In this document: piece after piece, positions 1 to 11,383 of the stretch
Layout: every line of letters starts with the position of its first letter
Position numbering within the stretch: position 1 is the first letter of the stretch
Assembly (NCBI RefSeq): GCF_026712205.1
Contig: NZ_JAPPUW010000008.1
Location: forward strand, 124,001 to 188,000
Reading direction: 5' to 3'
DNA length: 64,000 nt
DNA from: Pelomonas aquatica
GTDB lineage: Bacteria > Pseudomonadota > Gammaproteobacteria > Burkholderiales > Burkholderiaceae_C
The notes under the pieces: model-generated
What the model was told of the DNA's origin: nothing
Database searches by the model: none
The model's input: only the letters and a program-made list of their open reading frames with translations
Translations under genes and position numbers: made by a program

Positions 1-2
1 CG

Positions 3-266
3 CGTTATCGCAGCAAGACGAAAAGCTTTCTGACGCCAAACGCCTATTCGGATGACCTGAACGATATGAAGGCCGTCACCTACGTCGATTTGAGATTGAA
101 CTACAAGGCAACCAGCCAGTTGAGTGTTTATGTCGGAGCAAACAATGTGTTCAATGTTCAACCTGACATCAACGTACGCGATCCAGCTGTCGGCACCAAC
201 ACGGAACCCGGCGCCTACGACGTGATCGGCAGACAGTATTTCGTCGGTATGAAGCTCAAGATGTAG
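3..266 (+). CDS. TonB-dependent receptor, C-terminal end (partial)
   Basis: The reading frame is open from the window edge and ends at a TAG, so this is the 3' end of a longer gene whose start lies outside. The visible 87 residues have the features of the last strands of an outer-membrane TonB-dependent receptor: alternating hydrophobic and polar residues, a VGANNVFN turn motif common near the end of these barrels, a GRQYFVGMKLKM end and a short extracellular-loop-like stretch between them. The barrel would import a ligand across the outer membrane. Its position before sialate genes suggests a sialic-acid-related ligand, which is inference only; the plug domain and TonB box are not visible. 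Confidence 0.75.
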   Translation, partial: RYRSKTKSFLTPNAYSDDLNDMKAVTYVDLRLNYKATSQLSVYVGANNVFNVQPDINVRDPAVGTNTEPGAYDVIGRQYFVGMKLKM

Positions 267-576: not shown

Positions 577-2121
577 ATGAAGCACCCGCTCGCCGTCTTG
601 GCAATTTCGCTTTGCACAGCCACGCCATTGTTCGCAGCGGTGGAGGTCGATTCGATCTTTGGCGATCACATGGTCGTTCAACGCGACAAGCCCGTGGCCG
701 TCTTTGGCAGCGCGGCCGCCGGCGAGCTTGTGAAGGTCGCTTTCGGAGCCGATGTCGCCGAGACCCATGCTGGCGTCGACGGCCGCTGGATCGTTCGCCT
801 CCCTGCGCGCAAGGCCGAGGCCAAGCCTAGCCAGATCCGAATCGTGGGAGTGAGCAATGAGGTTCTGCTGCAGGACGTGCTGGTCGGTGATGTCTGGATC
901 ACCGCCGGTCAGTCGAACATGGAATTCAAGCTCGGGCAAGACGCAGAAGGCGGCGCGGAACTCCAGTCCGCAGCCGACCCCGCGCTGCGTGTGGCCACGT
1001 TCGAGCCACTCAACAAGAACGTCGGCGCCCTGGCGTTCGGACCCGATGACGCGCAGCGCCTGAATCCGGACAGCTATTACCGGGGAAGCTGGGCGGCCGC
1101 AGCGGGCCCCGATGCCGCGCGCGCCTCAGCCGTCGGGTATTGGTTCGCGAAGAAGATCCGGGCCGAAGTCGGCATTCCCGTCGGCGTCGTTGGCTACGCC
1201 ATCGGCGGCGCGCCGCTCGAAACCTTCGCCTCCAGGGAAGCGCTCACGGCCAGCGGCTTCGGCAACAAGCTCTCCGGCGATTGGATGAAGAACCAGGAAC
1301 TCCCAACGTGGGTGCGCGCGCGCGCGGCGCAGAACCTCGCCAAGCTGCTGGACTCGCCGGGAGACGAACTTGGCAAAAACCACGGCTACAAGCCGGCGTT
1401 CGCTTGGGAGTCCGGCATGGCCCGCATCGCCGAGTTTCCCGTGCGCGGCTTCCTCTGGTATCAGGGCGAGTCGAACGCCGTCGAGCCGGCCCGCATCGCC
1501 GAGTATGCGCGGCTACAGGCGCTGATGGCTGCCGACTGGCGTGCGAAATGGAAAGACCCGAAGCTGCCTTTCTACTTTGTGCAGCTCTCCGCGTGCGAAG
1601 CCGCCGAGCGCAAGCACTGGGGCGAGTTCCGCGACATGCAGCGACGATCCGTCGCGGCGATTCCCGCGCCCTCCGGCATGGCCGTCTCCTACGACCACGG
1701 CCCGCCGGTCGACGCGAAGAGCGATGTCCATCCGAACCATAAGCGCCCGGTCGGCGAACGCCTCGCGCTCCTCGCCCTGCGCGACGTTTACGGAAAACCC
1801 GGAATGATCTCGTCCGGCCCCGCCCCGGCAGAAATGACCGTGCGCGGCGGCGAACTCGTCATCGGCTTCGACCACGCCGCCGGCATGAAATCCTCGTCGG
1901 GCGGCCAGCTCGCGGGCTTCGAAATCTCCAACGATGGAGCCGCCTGGACGCCCGCCGACGCCCGCGTGGAGGGCCATACCGTGATCGTCTCCGCCCCCGG
2001 CGTCTCGGCCCCGAAAGCCGTCCGCTATGCCTGGGCATCTTGGTGCAAGGACGCCAACCTCGTGAACGGTGCGGGCCTGCCAGCCTCGACTTTCCAACTG
2101 CCCGCGTCTGCACAACCATGA
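577..2121 (+). CDS. sialate O-acetylesterase-like SGNH hydrolase
   Basis: A 514-residue secreted esterase that would remove O-acetyl groups from sialic acids outside the cytoplasm before uptake. Residues 1-20 form a signal peptide ending in PLFA. The SGNH catalytic set is visible: GQSNM with nucleophile Ser113, the family block WYQGESN at 295-300, and the Asp383-x-His385 dyad in the DVHPNHKRP block. The domain arrangement, with a short beta domain before the hydrolase core and a beta-rich C-terminus from about residue 410, is that of SIAE-type enzymes of glycan-degrading bacteria. The stop overlaps the next start (ATGA), so it is translationally coupled to the epimerase. A xylan or other carbohydrate acetylesterase is possible, but the neighbours favour sialate. 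Confidence 0.85.
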   Translation: MKHPLAVLAISLCTATPLFAAVEVDSIFGDHMVVQRDKPVAVFGSAAAGELVKVAFGADVAETHAGVDGRWIVRLPARKAEAKPSQIRIVGVSNEVLLQDVLVGDVWITAGQSNMEFKLGQDAEGGAELQSAADPALRVATFEPLNKNVGALAFGPDDAQRLNPDSYYRGSWAAAAGPDAARASAVGYWFAKKIRAEVGIPVGVVGYAIGGAPLETFASREALTASGFGNKLSGDWMKNQELPTWVRARAAQNLAKLLDSPGDELGKNHGYKPAFAWESGMARIAEFPVRGFLWYQGESNAVEPARIAEYARLQALMAADWRAKWKDPKLPFYFVQLSACEAAERKHWGEFRDMQRRSVAAIPAPSGMAVSYDHGPPVDAKSDVHPNHKRPVGERLALLALRDVYGKPGMISSGPAPAEMTVRGGELVIGFDHAAGMKSSSGGQLAGFEISNDGAAWTPADARVEGHTVIVSAPGVSAPKAVRYAWASWCKDANLVNGAGLPASTFQLPASAQP

Positions 2122-4309: not shown

Positions 4310-6991
4310 ATGCTTCGCCAACTGTTTTTCGCCGCGTGCCTGCTCGCGTCGGTCACGCTCGCGGCTCCGCTGCGGGCCGCCGAGCTGCGCATGAGCCCGG
4401 CGAGCGAGCCAGCGATTCCCGAACCGCACGGGCTCGCGGGGATGGCGGCGGTGGTGCTGCCCGCGAAGGAGGGGAGGGCGGTGGTGCTCGCGGCGGGTGG
4501 CGCGAATTTCCCCGAAAAGGCCCCGTGGAAAGGCGGCGCGAAAGCATTTCACACCGCGATTTACCGGCTCGACGGTGGCGCGTGGACGAAGGTGGGCGAT
4601 CTGCCTTCGCCGCGCGCCTACGCCGCCTATGCCGCGATGGCGAAGGGCATGGTCGTGGCCGGTGGCGTGGATTCGGAAAAGCATCTCGCGGAAACGCTGC
4701 TCGTGACCGCCGACGGCAAAACGTTTGCGCTCGCACCGCTGCCGCGGCCGGTCGCCTACGCGGCCTTCGCGGTGGACAACAACCGCCTCTACGTGATCGG
4801 CGGCCAGGAGTCGCCGACGGCCACCGCCGCGCTGGCCGCGACGTATCGGCTCGACCTCACCAAGGTCGATCCGGCGAAGCCCGAGGCAGCGCAGTGGGAG
4901 ACGCTGCCGGGCGCGCCGTTCGGCGGCCGCATTCTCTCCATCGCCGGTGCGCTCGATGGAAAAATCCAAGTCTTCGGCGGATGCTCGCTCGCCGCCGGGC
5001 CCGATGGCAAACCGGCGCGCATCTATCACACTGACGGCGCGACGTTGATCGCCTCCGCGTCAGAGCCCGCGCAGTTGTGGGCGTCCGAAAAACCCGCGCC
5101 GCTGCCCGGCAATCTCGCCGCCGCCGCGATGCCCGCCCCGGCCCGCGAAGGGATCCTGCTCGTGATCGGCGGCGACGACGGCTCGCGCTACGGCCAGCCG
5201 CCGCAGGAGCATCCGGGGCAATCGAACAAGATCCTCGCCTACGATCCGCGCGCGAACGCGTGGACGCCGCGCGGCGACTGGCCGGAAAAAATCGCCACCG
5301 CCCCCGCGCTGATCGCAGGCGACACCTTGATGACCGTCTCCGGCGAAACGCGCCCTGGCATCCGCACGCCAGCGGTCGCCGCGATGGAGATCGGCTACGT
5401 CCTCCGCCTCGTGCCGATGGATTGGCTCATCTTCGTCCTCTGCGCAATCGCGGTGGGCGTCATCGTGTGGCAGGCGCGCACGAAGGGCGTCTCGCGCGTG
5501 ATGGCCGATCTCGCCAGCGCCAGCGGCAAGCCCAGCCGCGCCGCGTGGATCGCCGTCGGCCTGCTTTTCGCGGTGGCGATGCTGAATTACCTCGACCGCC
5601 AGCTCCTCGCGACGATGCGTCCACCGATCGTGCGCGACATCCCGCAGACCGACGCGCAGTTCGGCCTGCTCACGGCGATCTTTCTATTCATCTATTCGGC
5701 GCTCAGCCCGGTCGGCGGCATTTTCGCGGACCGTTTCAGCCGCCGGCTCGTCATCCTCGTCTCGCTCGTCGTGTGGTCGGTGGTCACGTGGATCACCGGC
5801 CACGTCCGCAGCTACGAGGAACTCGTCGCCGCTCGCGCGCTCATGGGCGTGAGCGAGGCGTGCTACATCCCGGCGGCGCTCGCGTTGATCACCGATTTCC
5901 ATCGCGGCCCGACGCGCTCGCTGGCCACCGGCATTCACATGAGCGGCATCTACCTCGGCCAGGCGCTCGCTGGCCTCGGCGGTTTCGTCGCGGAAGCCGC
6001 GGGCTGGCGGCTCACGTTCGGCGTCTTCGGCCTCGTGGGCGTCGCCTATGCGCTGGTGCTCATCCTTTTTCTCAAGGAACCCGGCGGCGGCCACGCGGAC
6101 ACGGCGGAGTCCGGCGCGCAAGCCTCCGCGCCCGCAGAAAGGCCCGGCCTTGGCGAGATCCTCTCGGGCGTGCTGCATGTACCCGCGTTCTGGCTGTTGA
6201 TGGCGATCATGGCTTGCGCGAGCACGGCGAACTGGTTTGTGCTCTCGTGGCTGCCGTTGTTGTTGCAGGAAAAATTCAACCTCTCGCTCGGCGTCGCGGG
6301 CATCGCCCACGTCGGCGGCAACTGCGTCGAAGATGCCAAAGCCCTCGCGCTCAAAGCGGAGGAACTCGGCCTCGACGGCATCAGCGCGCTCGCGCCGTCC
6401 TACTACAAGCCTGGCGATCTCGGCGCACTCATCGATTGCTGCGCCGCCATCGCCGCCGCTGCGCCGAAGACGCCCTTTTACTACTACGACATTCCCGTGC
6501 TCACCGGCGTCAACCTGCCGATGCACCAGTTTCTGGCCGAAGCGCCCGCCCGTATCCCGACGTTCGCGGGGATCAAATTCACCAACCCCGACCTCGTTTC
6601 GTATCGCCGCACCCTCGATGTCGCCGGCGACGGATTCGACGTTCCGTGGGGCGTCGATGAAACGATCCTCGCCGCCCTCGCCACCGGCGCGAAAGGCGGC
6701 GTCGGCTCGACCTACAACTGGGCGCCGAAGCTCTACACCGACCTCATCGCCGCCTTCGAGCGCGGCGACCTCGCCGAAGCGCGGCGCCTGCAATCGCTCT
6801 CGATCGCGATGATCGACGCCATCGCGTCCATCGGCTTCCTCGGCGCGGCCAAGAAACTCATGACCCACCTCGGTGTACCTGTCGGCCCTGCGCGCCTCCC
6901 GCTCGGCAATCCGACCCAGGAGCAATTCGACGCCCTGCTCGCGAAGCTCAACGCCCTCGGCTTCCAGGACTGGGGCGCAAAAGCTGTGTAG
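4310..6991 (+). CDS. chimera: secreted mutarotase, half MFS transporter, truncated N-acetylneuraminate lyase
   Basis: An uninterrupted 893-codon gene starting two bases after the previous stop. Residues 1-24 are a signal peptide (cleavage after PLRA). Residues 25-365 are a second NanM-type kelch mutarotase, again with AGGANFP. A membrane segment at about 370-390 leads into an MFS transporter from about residue 410 (LNYLDRQL, FADRFSRR motifs). The MFS part stops near residue 664, after roughly seven of the expected twelve helices. It continues in frame as the lyase from IAHVGGN (665-671), with Tyr726 in YYYDIP and Schiff-base Lys756 in GIKFTNP. The first 80 or so lyase residues, including the GSTGE carboxylate-binding motif, are absent, as is the C-terminal half of the transporter. 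Neither function is likely to be intact. This is either a real in-frame deletion or an assembly join. Confidence 0.8.
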   Translation: MLRQLFFAACLLASVTLAAPLRAAELRMSPASEPAIPEPHGLAGMAAVVLPAKEGRAVVLAAGGANFPEKAPWKGGAKAFHTAIYRLDGGAWTKVGDLPSPRAYAAYAAMAKGMVVAGGVDSEKHLAETLLVTADGKTFALAPLPRPVAYAAFAVDNNRLYVIGGQESPTATAALAATYRLDLTKVDPAKPEAAQWETLPGAPFGGRILSIAGALDGKIQVFGGCSLAAGPDGKPARIYHTDGATLIASASEPAQLWASEKPAPLPGNLAAAAMPAPAREGILLVIGGDDGSRYGQPPQEHPGQSNKILAYDPRANAWTPRGDWPEKIATAPALIAGDTLMTVSGETRPGIRTPAVAAMEIGYVLRLVPMDWLIFVLCAIAVGVIVWQARTKGVSRVMADLASASGKPSRAAWIAVGLLFAVAMLNYLDRQLLATMRPPIVRDIPQTDAQFGLLTAIFLFIYSALSPVGGIFADRFSRRLVILVSLVVWSVVTWITGHVRSYEELVAARALMGVSEACYIPAALALITDFHRGPTRSLATGIHMSGIYLGQALAGLGGFVAEAAGWRLTFGVFGLVGVAYALVLILFLKEPGGGHADTAESGAQASAPAERPGLGEILSGVLHVPAFWLLMAIMACASTANWFVLSWLPLLLQEKFNLSLGVAGIAHVGGNCVEDAKALALKAEELGLDGISALAPSYYKPGDLGALIDCCAAIAAAAPKTPFYYYDIPVLTGVNLPMHQFLAEAPARIPTFAGIKFTNPDLVSYRRTLDVAGDGFDVPWGVDETILAALATGAKGGVGSTYNWAPKLYTDLIAAFERGDLAEARRLQSLSIAMIDAIASIGFLGAAKKLMTHLGVPVGPARLPLGNPTQEQFDALLAKLNALGFQDWGAKAV

Positions 6992-7127
6992 CGCATGCTA
7001 CCGACAGTTCACCCCACAGATCGCGTGCGCTTCAGTGAGACGGCCTGGGACGCTGTGCACATTGACTACCGAAGGGGGCTTGCACAGAACATCGAACTAC
7101 GGGACGGCGCGAGACGCCGTGGGACAC
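6992..7127. other. junction between sialate locus and core yicC region
   Basis: A short convergent gap. It contains a hairpin at 7104-7120 (ACGGCG/CGCCGT, 5-base loop) just beyond the yicC stop, which may help end yicC transcription but has no T-run. No gene is visible. Confidence 0.3.
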
Positions 7128-8042
7128 TCATTCAATGTTCTGCACCTGCTCGCGCATCTGCTCGATGGCGACCTTCATTTCGACAGAGATGTTCGTCAGC
7201 TCCAGCGCCGCGGACTTGGAGCCCAGGGTGTTGGCTTCGCGGTGCAGTTCCTGGATCAGGAAATCCAGGCGCTTGCCGAGCTCGCCGCCCTTCTTCAGCA
7301 GCCGGCTCAGTTCGTCGAGGTGGGCGCGCAGCCGCGCCAGTTCCTCGGCCACGTCGATGCGGATCGCAAACGCCGCGGCTTCGTTCAGCGCGCGCTCCTG
7401 CAGGGCTTCCTGAGGCACGCTGGACTGCGCGCCCGTGGCGGCCAGCGCCTCTTGCCAGCGCTCCAGGAAGCGCTGCTGCTGCCGAGCGACCACGGCCGGC
7501 AGCAGGGGTTCGGCCTCGTCGGCCAGCGTACGCAGCCGGGCGATGCGCTCCATCAGGATGGCGACCAGCTTCTCGCCCTCGCGCTCGCGGGACTCGGTCA
7601 GGCCGTCGACGCAGGCGCGGGCCGCCTCCAGCGTCGTGGCGTCGAGCTGGGCCGGCGCGCTGCCGCCGCTCTTGCACCAGTTCAGCGCCTCATGGACGGA
7701 CAGCGGCGCGGCCTGGGGCAGCCAGGCGCGCACCTTGGCTTCCAGGTTGGCCAGGCGGTTGAGCTGCTCGGGCTGAGGCTGGGGCCAGCCGCCGTCGGCC
7801 TCGCGCTGGGTGTTGATGCGCAGCTCGATCTTGCCGCGTTTGAAGCGGGCGGCGACCAGCTCGCGCAGCTGAGGCTCCAGGCCGCGCAGCTCCTCGGGCA
7901 TGCGCATGGACAGGTCCAGGAAACGGCCGTTGACCGACCGCAATTCGACGCTGACACTTGCCGGGATCGTGCTGCTGCCATCGTCGGCCTTAGGGGGTTG
8001 TGCCAGGGAATTGGCGTACCCGGTCATGCTGTAGACTGGCAT
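7128..8042 (-). CDS. yicC: YicC family endoribonuclease
   Basis: A 304-residue protein of the YicC family, described in E. coli as an endoribonuclease acting on small RNAs. The N-terminus MPVYSMTGYA matches the family's SMTGYA opening, so the start at 8042 is preferred over the more upstream in-frame codon and over the internal ATG at 8027. The RSVNGRFLDLSMRMP block and the acidic C-terminal end (NISVEMKVAIEQMREQVQNIE) are characteristic. It is divergent from the kinase gene with a 46-bp gap. In related genomes yicC is usually followed by gmk; here it faces the sialate locus instead. Confidence 0.9.
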   Translation of the reverse strand: MPVYSMTGYANSLAQPPKADDGSSTIPASVSVELRSVNGRFLDLSMRMPEELRGLEPQLRELVAARFKRGKIELRINTQREADGGWPQPQPEQLNRLANLEAKVRAWLPQAAPLSVHEALNWCKSGGSAPAQLDATTLEAARACVDGLTESREREGEKLVAILMERIARLRTLADEAEPLLPAVVARQQQRFLERWQEALAATGAQSSVPQEALQERALNEAAAFAIRIDVAEELARLRAHLDELSRLLKKGGELGKRLDFLIQELHREANTLGSKSAALELTNISVEMKVAIEQMREQVQNIE

Positions 8043-8088
8043 TTCGCACTCGTAAAAACAGACGTTAACTAAGAGATTTAGCGCGATT

Positions 8089-9057
8089 ATGTCCAAGCCG
8101 AAGCCGGCGCCCTTGCCCGCAGGCACGGTGGTTGGGGGCTACCAGATCATCAAGCGGCTGGCGGCGGGCGGTTTCGGCGTGGTCTACCTCGCCGAGGACC
8201 CCGACCACCATCTGGTCGCGCTGAAGGAATACCTGCCCTCGTCGCTGGCCGAGCGTTCGCCGGGGGAACTGACGCCCCGCGTGAAGCCCGAGAAGCAGCC
8301 GCTCTACCGGCTCGGGCTGAAGAGCTTCTTCGAGGAAGGTCGCTCGCTCGCGCAGATCTCGCATCCCAGCGTCGTCTCGGTGCTGAACTTCCTGCGCGAG
8401 AACGAGACCGTCTACATGGTCATGAACTATCTGCAGGGCGACACCCTGCAGGACTTCATCGTGACCGCGCGCGACATGAAGCGCGACAAGGTCTTCCGCG
8501 AGTCGACCATCCGCAGCCTGTTCGACGAGATCCTGCGCGGCCTGCGCATCGTGCATCAGCACAAGATGCTGCACCTGGACATCAAGCCGGCCAACATCTT
8601 CATCACCAACGACAACAAGGCCGTGCTGCTGGACTTCGGCGCCGCGCGCGAGGTGCTGAGCAAGGAAGGCAACTTCATCCGCCCGATGTACACGCCGGGC
8701 TTCGCCGCGCCGGAGATGTACCGCCGCGACGGCTCGCTCGGCCCCTGGACCGACATCTACGCCATCGGTGCCTGCATCTATGCCTGCATGCAGGGCTACC
8801 CGCCCAACGACGCGCCGCAGCGCCTGGAGAAGGACCGCCTGAACCTGAGCCTGAGCCGGCTGCGCAATGTCTATTCCGACAACCTGCTCGAAGTGACCGA
8901 GTGGTGCATGTCGCTGGACCCGCTGGCCCGGCCGCAGAGCGTGTTCGCGCTGCAGAAGGAACTCGCCCGCGAGACCGAGAGGCGCTACACCAAGCTGTCG
9001 TTCAGCGAAAGGCTCAAGCTGCAGCTCGAAAACCTGAAGTCCGGAGCGAAAGCTTGA
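8089..9057 (+). CDS. Hanks-type serine/threonine protein kinase
   Basis: A 322-residue cytosolic kinase without membrane segment or sensor domain. The glycine loop is at residues 24-32 (LAAGGFGVV), the ATP lysine is Lys46 (VALKEYLP), the catalytic loop is HLDIKPAN at 162-169, and DFG is at 182-184. The catalytic loop has Leu where most kinases have Arg (HRD), so this is a non-RD kinase that may not need activation-loop phosphorylation. A PP2C phosphatase follows on the same strand, suggesting a reversible phosphorylation pair. Its substrates cannot be told from sequence. About 35 residues after the kinase core are basic and helical. Confidence 0.9.
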   Translation: MSKPKPAPLPAGTVVGGYQIIKRLAAGGFGVVYLAEDPDHHLVALKEYLPSSLAERSPGELTPRVKPEKQPLYRLGLKSFFEEGRSLAQISHPSVVSVLNFLRENETVYMVMNYLQGDTLQDFIVTARDMKRDKVFRESTIRSLFDEILRGLRIVHQHKMLHLDIKPANIFITNDNKAVLLDFGAAREVLSKEGNFIRPMYTPGFAAPEMYRRDGSLGPWTDIYAIGACIYACMQGYPPNDAPQRLEKDRLNLSLSRLRNVYSDNLLEVTEWCMSLDPLARPQSVFALQKELARETERRYTKLSFSERLKLQLENLKSGAKA

Positions 9058-9082
9058 ACCCCCACGTTCGCGTTCGCTCACT

Positions 9083-9134
9083 GCCCCCCGAGGGGGCGCA
9101 AGGCTGCCCTAGGGGCGGCCCGTCGGGAGCCTTG
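9083..9134. repeat. GC-rich intergenic hairpin element upstream of the phosphatase
   Basis: A C6-GA-G5 palindrome (about 9083-9098) is followed by a hairpin with arms CAAGGCT (9099-9105) and AGCCTTG (9128-9134), enclosing a further GCCC/GGGC pair. The likely ribosome binding site of the phosphatase (GGGAG, 9124-9128) lies at the base of the 3' arm. It resembles the C-run palindromes at 17007, 47178 and 59226. Confidence 0.5.
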
Positions 9135-9136
9135 GC

Positions 9137-10045
9137 GTGAGGTTCAGCGTCTTCCAGGTCAGCCGCCGCGGCGGCCGCGAGACCAATGAAGACCGCATGG
9201 GCTATTGCTTCACGCGGGAGGCCGGCCTGTTCGCGCTGGCGGACGGCATGGGCGGCCACCCCGAAGGCGAGGTCGCGGCCCAGATCGCGCTGCAGACCCT
9301 GGCCGCGCTGTTCCAGCAGGACGCCCGGCCGGTGCTCGACGACCCGCAGCGCTTCCTGCAGGAAACCATCGTCATCGCCCACCGGCAGCTGCTGCGCTAC
9401 GCGGCCAGCAAGGGCCTGGCCGACACGCCCCGCACCACCGTCGTCGCCTGCATCCTGCAGGGCAACCAGGCCTGGTGGGCGCACTGCGGCGATTCGCGCC
9501 TCTACCTCGTGCGCGACGGCAAGCTGATCGCCCGCACGCGCGACCATTCCTACTCCGAGCTGCAGGAGGCGCTGGGCCGCGTCGGGCCGGGCAACGAGCC
9601 CTTCAACCGCAACGTGCTCTTCACCTGCCTGGGCAGCCCCGGCAAGCCGATGGTGGACTGCCAGGGGCCGCTGACGCTGGAGTCCTCGGACCGCCTGCTG
9701 CTGTGCTCCGACGGGCTGTGGGGCAGCGTCGAGGACCACGAGATCGTCCAGCACATGGCCGACCAGGCCATCTCCGAGGCCGCCCCCGAGCTCGTCGAAG
9801 AGGCGCTGCGCCGCGGCGGGGCGCGCAGCGACAACGTGACCGTGCTCGCCGTCGAGTGGGAAGGCGAGGGCGACCCCGCCGGCGAGACGACGCAGAACCT
9901 CGGCAACTCCGGCTTCGCGTCCACCATCCAGGGGGCGCTGGACGTCGACCTCGTTGCCGCCATGGACGACGAGGAGATCGAGCGCGCCGTGCGCGAGATC
10001 AACGAAGTCATCCGCCAATCCGGCCGCGGCGTCAACCGCCGCTAA
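9137..10045 (+). CDS. PP2C-type serine/threonine protein phosphatase
   Basis: A 302-residue metal-dependent phosphatase starting at GTG. Motifs for the two-metal site are complete: NED at 17-19, ADGMGGH at 35-41, GDSR from Gly118, SDG at 191-193 and SDN at 231-233. The catalytic domain ends near residue 245 and is followed by an acidic, helical tail of about 55 residues of unknown role. It should dephosphorylate targets of the adjacent kinase. Translation may be affected by the hairpin that contains its ribosome binding site. Kinase, phosphatase and rph are all on the same strand with short gaps. Confidence 0.92.
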
Positions 10046-10058
10046 CCTTCTTTCCGCC

Positions 10059-10781
10059 ATGACCAAGACCTTCACGCGCAGCGCGGGCCGCGCTGCCAAT
10101 CAATTGCGCCCGGTGCGCATCACCCGCAACTACACCGTCCACGCCGAGGGTTCGGTGCTGATCGAGTTCGGCGCCACCAAGGTGCTCTGCACCGCCTCGG
10201 TCGAGGAGCGCGTGCCGCCGCACAAGCGCGGCTCGGGCGAGGGCTGGGTGACGGCCGAGTACGGCATGCTGCCGCGCGCCACCCACACGCGCGGCGACCG
10301 CGAGGCCGCCAAGGGCAAGCAGAGCGGGCGCACGCAGGAGATCCAGCGCCTCATCGGCCGCTCGCTGCGCGCCGTGTTCGACCTCGCGCTTCTCGGCGAG
10401 CGCACGATCACGCTGGACTGCGACGTGCTGCAGGCCGACGGCGGCACGCGCACGGCCGCCATCACCGGCGCCTTCGTCGCGGCCCGCGATGCGGTGGACA
10501 GGCTGCTGGCCGACGGCAGGATCGCCGCGTCGCCGATCAAGGACGCGGTCGCCGCGATCTCGGTCGGCCTCGTCGACGGCGTGCCGCTGCTCGACCTGGA
10601 ATACATCGAGGATTCGGCCTGCGACACCGACATGAACGTCGTCATGACCGGCGCCGGCGGCTTCGTCGAGCTGCAGGGCACGGCCGAGGGCGTCGTCTTC
10701 ACGCGCGACGAGATGAGCGCGTTGCTGGATCTGGCCGACAAGGGCATCGGCGAGTTGCTCGAATTGCAGAAGCAGGCATGA
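10059..10781 (+). CDS. rph: ribonuclease PH
   Basis: A 240-residue phosphorolytic 3'-5' exoribonuclease that trims tRNA 3' ends. The start at 10059 gives [19 protein letters not shown], the usual opening of this protein. It carries the phosphate-binding stretch around [10 protein letters not shown], the [13 protein letters not shown] block and the C-terminal GTAEG segment. Length is normal. Its stop overlaps the rdgB start (ATGA), a gene pair conserved in proteobacteria. Confidence 0.97.
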
Positions 10782-11383
10782 AGCTCGTCCTCGCCTCCAA
10801 CAACGCGAAGAAGCTCGTCGAGCTGCAGGCGCTGTTCGCGCCGCTCGGCGTCGAACTGGTCGCCCAGGGCAGCCTCGGCATCGCGGAGGCCGAGGAACCC
10901 TTCGAGACCTTTGCCGAGAACGCGCTGGCCAAGGCCCGCCATGCGGCCCGCGCCAGCGGCCTGCCGGCCCTGGCCGACGACTCGGGCCTGAGCGTCGACG
11001 CGCTGGGCGGTGCGCCCGGCGTGCGCTCGGCCCGCTATGCGCTGGACGCCGGCGGCGAGAAGGGCGACGCGGCCAACAACGAGCGCCTGCTGCGCGAACT
11101 GGCCGGCCGCGAGGACCGCACAGCCCGCTTCGTCTGCGCGCTGGTGGCCGTGCGCGGCGCGGCCGACCCCGAGCCGCTGGTCGCGATGGGCCGCTGGCCC
11201 GGCCGCATCCTGACCGCGCCGCGCGGCACCGGCGGCTTCGGCTACGACCCGCTGATGTTCATCCCGCCGCTGTGCCGCGCCGTGGCCGAACTCGGCGCCG
11301 GCGAGAAGAACATCCACAGCCACCGTGCGCTGGCTGCCGGAGAACTTGTGCGCCAGATGCGCGAGGTCTGGAAGCTTGGCTGA
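10778..11383 (+). CDS. rdgB: dITP/XTP pyrophosphatase (HAM1/RdgB)
   Basis: A 201-residue house-cleaning enzyme that hydrolyses ITP, dITP and XTP to monophosphates and keeps deaminated purines out of nucleic acids. Signature segments are [11 protein letters not shown] at the N-terminus, [13 protein letters not shown], the ADDSGL catalytic block and GGFGYDP near residue 150. It is translationally coupled to rph and sits 13 bp before hemW, consistent with one transcript. Confidence 0.96.

Follow-up and report, generated by a model that had tools for sequence, protein, structure and literature searches.

An in-frame chimera in the 64,000-nucleotide stretch of DNA analysed here (the window) joins a NanM-MFS transporter fusion to an N-acetylneuraminate lyase that lacks its N-terminus. 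Most probably, import and cleavage at this locus were broken by a single recent deletion within an acquired island for sialic-acid use, which left the kelch domain in place. The fusion looks like ordinary gene decay, an accident that broke genes and not a novel protein design.

One open reading frame combines a NanM-MFS transporter with a truncated lyase

The chimera is a single open frame on the plus strand that runs from an ATG at 4310 to a stop at 6989-6991 (893 codons) and is composed of the following parts:

4310..6991, plus strand: chimeric open reading frame of 893 aa, with a NanM-like kelch domain, an extra transmembrane helix, approximately the first seven MFS helices and a lyase remnant
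4310..4381, plus strand: predicted signal peptide, hydrophobic residues 1-24 (hydropathy only)
4427..5389, plus strand: cyclically permuted kelch (mutarotase) domain of the NanM type, residues ca. 40-360, apparently complete
5390..5485, plus strand: extra membrane helix between kelch domain and MFS part, residues 361-392, predicted from hydropathy; kelch and MFS also share an open frame in L023 and L024
5525..6301, plus strand: MFS part, residues 406-664, with helices 1-7 present and 8-12 absent according to family alignment, the helix numbers being putative
6299..6304, plus strand: junction codons GGC (6299-6301) and ATC (6302-6304), breakpoint 6301/6302, possible overlap of 0-4 nt
6302..6991, plus strand: N-acetylneuraminate lyase remnant without its first ca. 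78 residues, which comprise the GSTGE loop and probably the first two barrel strands

The Pfam matches to MFS_1 (PF07690; residues 419-664, profile positions 1-241 of 347, E = 1.2e-39) and to DHDPS/NAL (PF00701; residues 664-881, profile positions 73-287 of 289, E = 1.2e-32) abut within one residue, meeting at residue 664, which is encoded at 6299-6301. Chance does not explain the chimera because both halves match at E < 1e-30 and abut. The first-pass annotation had described an in-frame chimera of an MFS transporter and N-acetylneuraminate lyase, with lyase sequence from 6302 on that begins at about residue 80 of a normal lyase, in agreement with the Pfam, NCBIfam and Protein Data Bank alignments, which place the start at about residue 79 and the switch at 6301/6302. 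Its left partner, described there as half an MFS transporter, is in fact the NanM-MFS fusion itself and not a plain MFS gene, as residues 1-400 hold a signal peptide followed by a kelch domain of the NanM type and an additional membrane helix. That annotation overlooked both the NanM domain and this helix, as well as the predicted periplasmic placement of the lyase remnant. The kelch domain scores 82.6 bits against PF24996 (NanM; cut-off 45), in two stretches, and 89.2 bits against TIGR03548, below the cut-off of 243.2.

The transporter part does not extend to twelve helices. Kelch and MFS sequences share one open frame in the fusion genes of L023 and L024, as they do in the window, but MFS_1 reaches profile positions 344 and 338 of 347, respectively, in these two genes (1-344 in L023) with no lyase in frame, whereas the window match stops at 241. 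By comparison with L023, the last 151 MFS residues are missing, which would correspond to five helices by family topology; a hydropathy scan resolves only about five MFS helices and the helix numbers are taken from family alignments. In the standard MFS topology, the chain exits helix 7 on the periplasmic side. Because the lyase sequence follows helix 7, the remnant would lie in the periplasm, on the wrong side of the membrane.

Among NCBIfam lyase models, N-acetylneuraminate lyase fits the remnant best, with a match that begins at profile position 75 and a score of 113.8 against a curated cut-off of 281, under which the intact L023 lyase (159.9) falls as well. In the Protein Data Bank, the alignments of the five top-ranking NAL chains begin at residue 75-108 of the respective chain. 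Among NanA structures (PF00701; 6h4e, 5afd, 6arh), 6h4e aligns through its residues 75-294 with residues 665-885 of the chimera, including the tyrosine and the Schiff-base lysine. Tyr726, in FYYYDIP (from 723), and Lys756, in GIKFTN (from 754), are both retained, as had been claimed. Compared with NanA, however, the remnant is without ca. 78 N-terminal residues including the GSTGE loop. This motif is absent from the chimera and found at 47 in the L023 nanA product, and GxxGE is present in 24/24 relatives of alignment A1. PMC3014015 sets out the roles of Lys165 and Tyr137 in the lyase and describes Ser47 and Thr48 of the E. coli enzyme as holding the pyruvate carboxylate. Since the Ser47/Thr48 loop falls in the missing part, the remnant has no carboxylate-binding loop. 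A complete lyase barrel (ca. 295-310 aa) is not present, the profile being covered only from position 73-75. An AlphaFold model of residues 644-893 (250 aa, 25-sequence alignment) has a mean pLDDT of 88.3 and superposes on NALs with TM scores of 0.83 by query length and ca. 0.70 by target length (best chains). By alignment, the model would start at the third strand and the first two barrel strands would be gone. A confident model obtained from a family alignment is no proof that the remnant folds.

Relatives encode transporter and lyase separately

A scan of a genome collection described as covering 84,980 species confirmed 95 relatives; the best 80 were taken as loci and the other 15 left out of locus counts. 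In the closest of these, L023, a NanM-MFS gene of 852 aa (7767-10325) is followed after 43 nt by a separate nanA gene (10369-11292) in a different frame. Identity between the window and L023 is 65% for the kelch domain, 76% for MFS and 77% for the lyase. It has no counterpart of L023 9870-10602, a stretch of 733 nt encoding 151 MFS residues, the stop, the gap between the genes and 78 lyase residues. Comparison with this nearest intact locus, with its separate neighboring genes and 733 extra nt, had been proposed beforehand, and it supports the suggested loss of about five MFS helices (151 residues, five helices by family topology) and of the GSTGE part of the lyase (78 residues). The lost lyase portion had been put at a third of the protein and is about a quarter (78/307 residues by L023).

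At the E-value limits set, both genes are present in 33 loci among the best 80 of 95 relatives. They lie on the plus strand together in 30 of these, the other three (L033, L041 and L054, with nanA on the opposite strand) being left out of further counts. In six of the 30 loci (L023, L025, L030, L034, L064 and L075) the MFS gene is immediately followed by nanA, and the two points joined in the window are 712-792 nt apart. The remaining 24 have nanA upstream (23 loci) or 5.9 kb downstream (L035). MFS and nanA are contained in one open frame in 0/30 plus-strand loci among the best 80 of 95 relatives. We looked for homologs with the same full-length architecture, as had been suggested, and reject an established MFS-NanA fusion architecture, which no examined relative carries. 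Kelch and MFS share an open frame in 2/39 loci among the best 80 of 95, namely L023 and L024 (Akkermansia glycaniphila).

Among the matches listed for 19 other genomes of the genus there is no NanM-MFS-lyase protein, and the best of them (≤84.5 bits) cover the MFS or the lyase part alone, in proteins of other kinds. No match to the chimera was found at E = 1e-60 in 398 other genomes of the family or in 398 other genomes of the order. At 1e-40, 8/397 other genomes of the phylum match in the lyase part only, through open frames of 301-340 codons; the family, order and phylum draws overlap and their counts are not independent. The part of the literature on sialic-acid operons that was consulted contains no evident description of such fusions, and we likewise found none of deletion fusions.

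The junction lies outside any long repeat

MFS relatives carry a conserved AG at the position of the join in 76/79 sequences and GG in 3/79, followed by I in 14/79 and by L in 44. In none of the 79 does IAHVG follow the conserved AG or GG. Lyases have [IVFL]xxVG in 32/33 sequences, with V directly before it in 24/33. Because MFS and lyase relatives differ at this point, the sequence possibly common to both sides is limited to 0-4 nt, at most the ATC codon and one further base. The earlier suggestion that GIAHVG represents shared short homology is not borne out by these alignments. At the corresponding breakpoints of L023, the MFS gene goes on with ACC and the ATC of the lyase gene is preceded by GTG, leaving no overlap.

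The 24-mer at the junction occurs once in the genome, its next match having 3 mismatches (the reversed control gave 1 match). Within the contig, the 16-, 18- and 21-mers that span the junction each occur once, and some 12- and 14-mers occur twice. A scan of 6150-6450 for direct repeats found a single pair, a 13-mer whose two copies (85% alike) flank the join at ca. 90-110 nt. Repeat-mediated misassembly is not supported by the k-mer uniqueness or by the repeat scan of 6150-6450.

No second nanA is recognized in the genome

The genome is a draft assembly of 56 contigs with a completeness of 99.99 and a contamination of 0.03. Four PF00701 genes were found: the remnant, one at C21, C32:6811-7662 and C1:318243-319091. 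The C21 gene is DapA (347.5 bits, cut-off 206.15). The C32 and C1 genes score 99.7 and 35.6 bits, respectively, against 382 for TIGR00683, a cut-off that the intact L023 lyase also misses (139.3). Both fall below the cut-offs of every NCBIfam model they match. Searching the genome with the L023 lyase recovered the window copy from residue 74 of the query onward (76% identity), all other matches being at most 31% identical; this search is the stronger argument against a second nanA because the intact L023 lyase also misses the TIGR00683 cut-off. A search for another nanA in the genome had been advised, and neither profile scores nor the L023 query led to a second gene being recognized. The missing MFS end gave no match elsewhere in the genome at E = 1, a weak negative without a positive control. 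Another sialate importer is possible among the 66 MFS matches of the genome. A nagA gene is present and scores over its cut-off (243.4 against 225.65), which makes GlcNAc use plausible.

The chimera closes an apparently acquired sialic-acid island

The other features of the island and its right edge within the window are:

1..265, plus strand: 3' end of a TonB-dependent receptor, the second of two in tandem
577..2121, plus strand: SASA-family sialate O-acetylesterase-like gene, 514 aa
2118..4307, plus strand: AGE-family N-acylglucosamine 2-epimerase fused in frame to a second kelch domain, 729 aa
6992..7127, no strand: host intergenic DNA; homology to L152 resumes at ca. 6993, taken as the right island border

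The island also contains a NanR-like regulator for which NanR is the best model (70.8 bits, under the cut-off of 260). The tandem TonB-dependent receptors (L103 1853-4873 and 5306-8266, the second ending at window position 265) are 83% identical to each other. The same region holds a truncated NanM piece on the minus strand (L103 117-614, G000 C55 116117-116614), matching PF24996 positions 4-107 of 350, and a short plus-strand open frame (L103 1112-1813, G000 C55 117112-117813) that is kelch-like by eye and has no Pfam match. These two possibly represent further decay in the island.

The AGE-kelch protein, the second unusual in-frame fusion of the operon, lacks an obvious signal peptide. Among the best 80 of 95 relatives, five loci contain AGE, and in these the AGE frame carries no kelch domain at its end. 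According to PMC8141875, the substrate of NanA is used preferentially in its open form, and its use in vitro is accelerated by NanM, which is periplasmic in E. coli. Judged by its sequence, the AGE-kelch fusion could be a cytoplasmic epimerase-anomerase. The lyase, AGE epimerase, MFS transporter, esterase and mutarotase families of the cluster also occur in the Bacteroides-type sialic acid pathway with the AGE epimerase NanE-II, reviewed in PMC10017367; in contrast to that pathway, the transporter and lyase of the window are both truncated and fused.

The sialic-acid-use island, carried by what is, judging by gene content, probably a member of the Burkholderiales, looks horizontally acquired, a foreign character suggested by its leucine codons, the lack of counterparts in related genomes and the end of homology at its borders. 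From SASA to lyase, CTC makes up 0.35-0.86 and CTG 0.14-0.48 of leucine codons, compared with CTG fractions of 0.50-0.80 in the seven flanking genes tested. The kelch part of the AGE fusion is the exception within this block (CTG 0.48 over CTC 0.35). The codon argument is weaker for the two TonB receptors because they favor CTG (0.45) over CTC (0.26-0.27); their GC3 is 0.73-0.74 versus 0.87-0.96 in flanking genes.

The island has sharp borders, at C55 115192 and at window position 6993. On the left, homology to 18 genus relatives stops at or just before the kinase stop codon. On the right, homology to the same-genus locus L152 resumes at window position 6993, 2 nt after the lyase stop; this border is one comparison, as L152 alone of 18 yicC-flank loci aligned with the intergenic stretch of the window. 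Another of them, L154, aligned only to other parts of the contig. An empty site was not seen, there being no yicC beside the kinase in 18 same-genus stretches of 2.5-10.6 kb each, the shortest of which is uninformative since the kinase itself spans ca. 2.4 kb. The left (kinase) and right (yicC) flanks of the island are not adjacent in the same-genus stretches read, and a rearrangement or misjoin near the island is possible. In G002, an integrase frame with arm-binding and central domains directly follows yicC (L149 2563-3333), and the 3' side of yicC may be an insertion hot spot.

A single deletion as the probable origin of the chimera

The ancestral locus would have resembled the relatives with separate, adjacent genes, within an acquired island likely composed of a NanR-like regulator, two TonB receptors, a SASA esterase, an AGE epimerase-kelch protein, a NanM-kelch-MFS transporter and nanA. 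A deletion of ca. 0.7 kb (about 730 bases) would then have extended from the loop after MFS helix 7 to approximately codon 79 of the next gene, nanA, the reading frame presumably being kept by chance. One deletion suffices because six loci have exactly the order MFS then nanA. The event looks recent, one of two options (recent or artefactual) first suggested from the sequence itself, because identity to L023 is 76-77% in the retained MFS and lyase sequences compared with 65% in the kelch domain. Its product would be a membrane-tethered NanM domain on a dead half-transporter, followed by a periplasmic lyase remnant without the carboxylate loop. Given such a half-transporter and remnant, the locus is predicted to no longer import or cleave sialic acid. 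Transport and cleavage appear to be lost; the kelch domain may survive and may still interconvert anomers. Several points speak against a deletion. The nearest relative is only 65-77% identical, providing no close intact copy for comparison, and frame retention is a one-in-three chance. Conserved residues are kept in both halves and there are no stops, which also fits a protein under selection. The AGE-kelch protein of this operon could also be a sign that in-frame fusions are favored here.

The main rival to a deletion is an assembly artefact, in which both genes are intact in the strain and ca. 0.7 kb was lost by the assembler. The 56 contigs of the draft, halves so well preserved that they show no sign of age, and island flanks that are not neighbors in the relatives read would all fit such an error. 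It is nevertheless rather unlikely given a junction 24-mer that is unique genome-wide with up to 2 mismatches, 16-, 18- and 21-mers that are single-copy in the contig, and a nearby direct repeat limited to the 85%-alike 13-mer ca. 90-110 nt off the join. In addition, neither the missing MFS part (a weak negative) nor the lyase N-terminus is found elsewhere in the genome, whose completeness and contamination are 99.99 and 0.03. Recombination between two different acquired clusters, instead of a simple deletion in one operon, is suggested by the differing gene order among G000, L023 and L025, by the truncated NanM piece and tandem receptors as signs of a reshuffled region, and by the codon use of the lyase, which is more extreme than anywhere else in the block (CTC 0.86). 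In the MFS part, however, codon use tends in the same direction (CTC 0.59), and with MFS followed by nanA in six loci a single deletion is enough, making such an exchange extremely improbable.

Selection for a working fusion, either as a useful membrane-tethered NanM or through a new role of the lyase remnant, for example as a scaffold, seems improbable. The frame is kept, the kelch part is apparently complete, the adjoining gene is another in-frame fusion, and the remnant model has a mean pLDDT of 88.3 and superposes on NALs (TM 0.83 by query). Yet none of the 30 loci among the best 80 of 95 relatives shares the fusion and the carboxylate-binding loop, GxxGE in 24/24 A1 relatives, is gone along with, presumably, the first two barrel strands. 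By standard MFS topology, helix 7 would place the lyase in the periplasm, and a confident family-alignment model is no evidence that the fragment folds. It is very improbable that the fusion is translated and retained as a NanM mutarotase anchored by about eight helices with a folded periplasmic lyase remnant, alongside a cytoplasmic AGE-kelch protein acting on sugars from another transporter. Were this the case, the locus would have given up full sialic-acid use and would now handle free or O-acetylated sialic acid or ManNAc.

If the chimera arose by deletion, as is most probable, a single event can strip an acquired catabolic island of its two key steps. Automatic annotation would still see an intact locus, with an open frame and both domains scoring well. 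Sialic-acid import and cleavage should not be credited to this genome from these domain hits.
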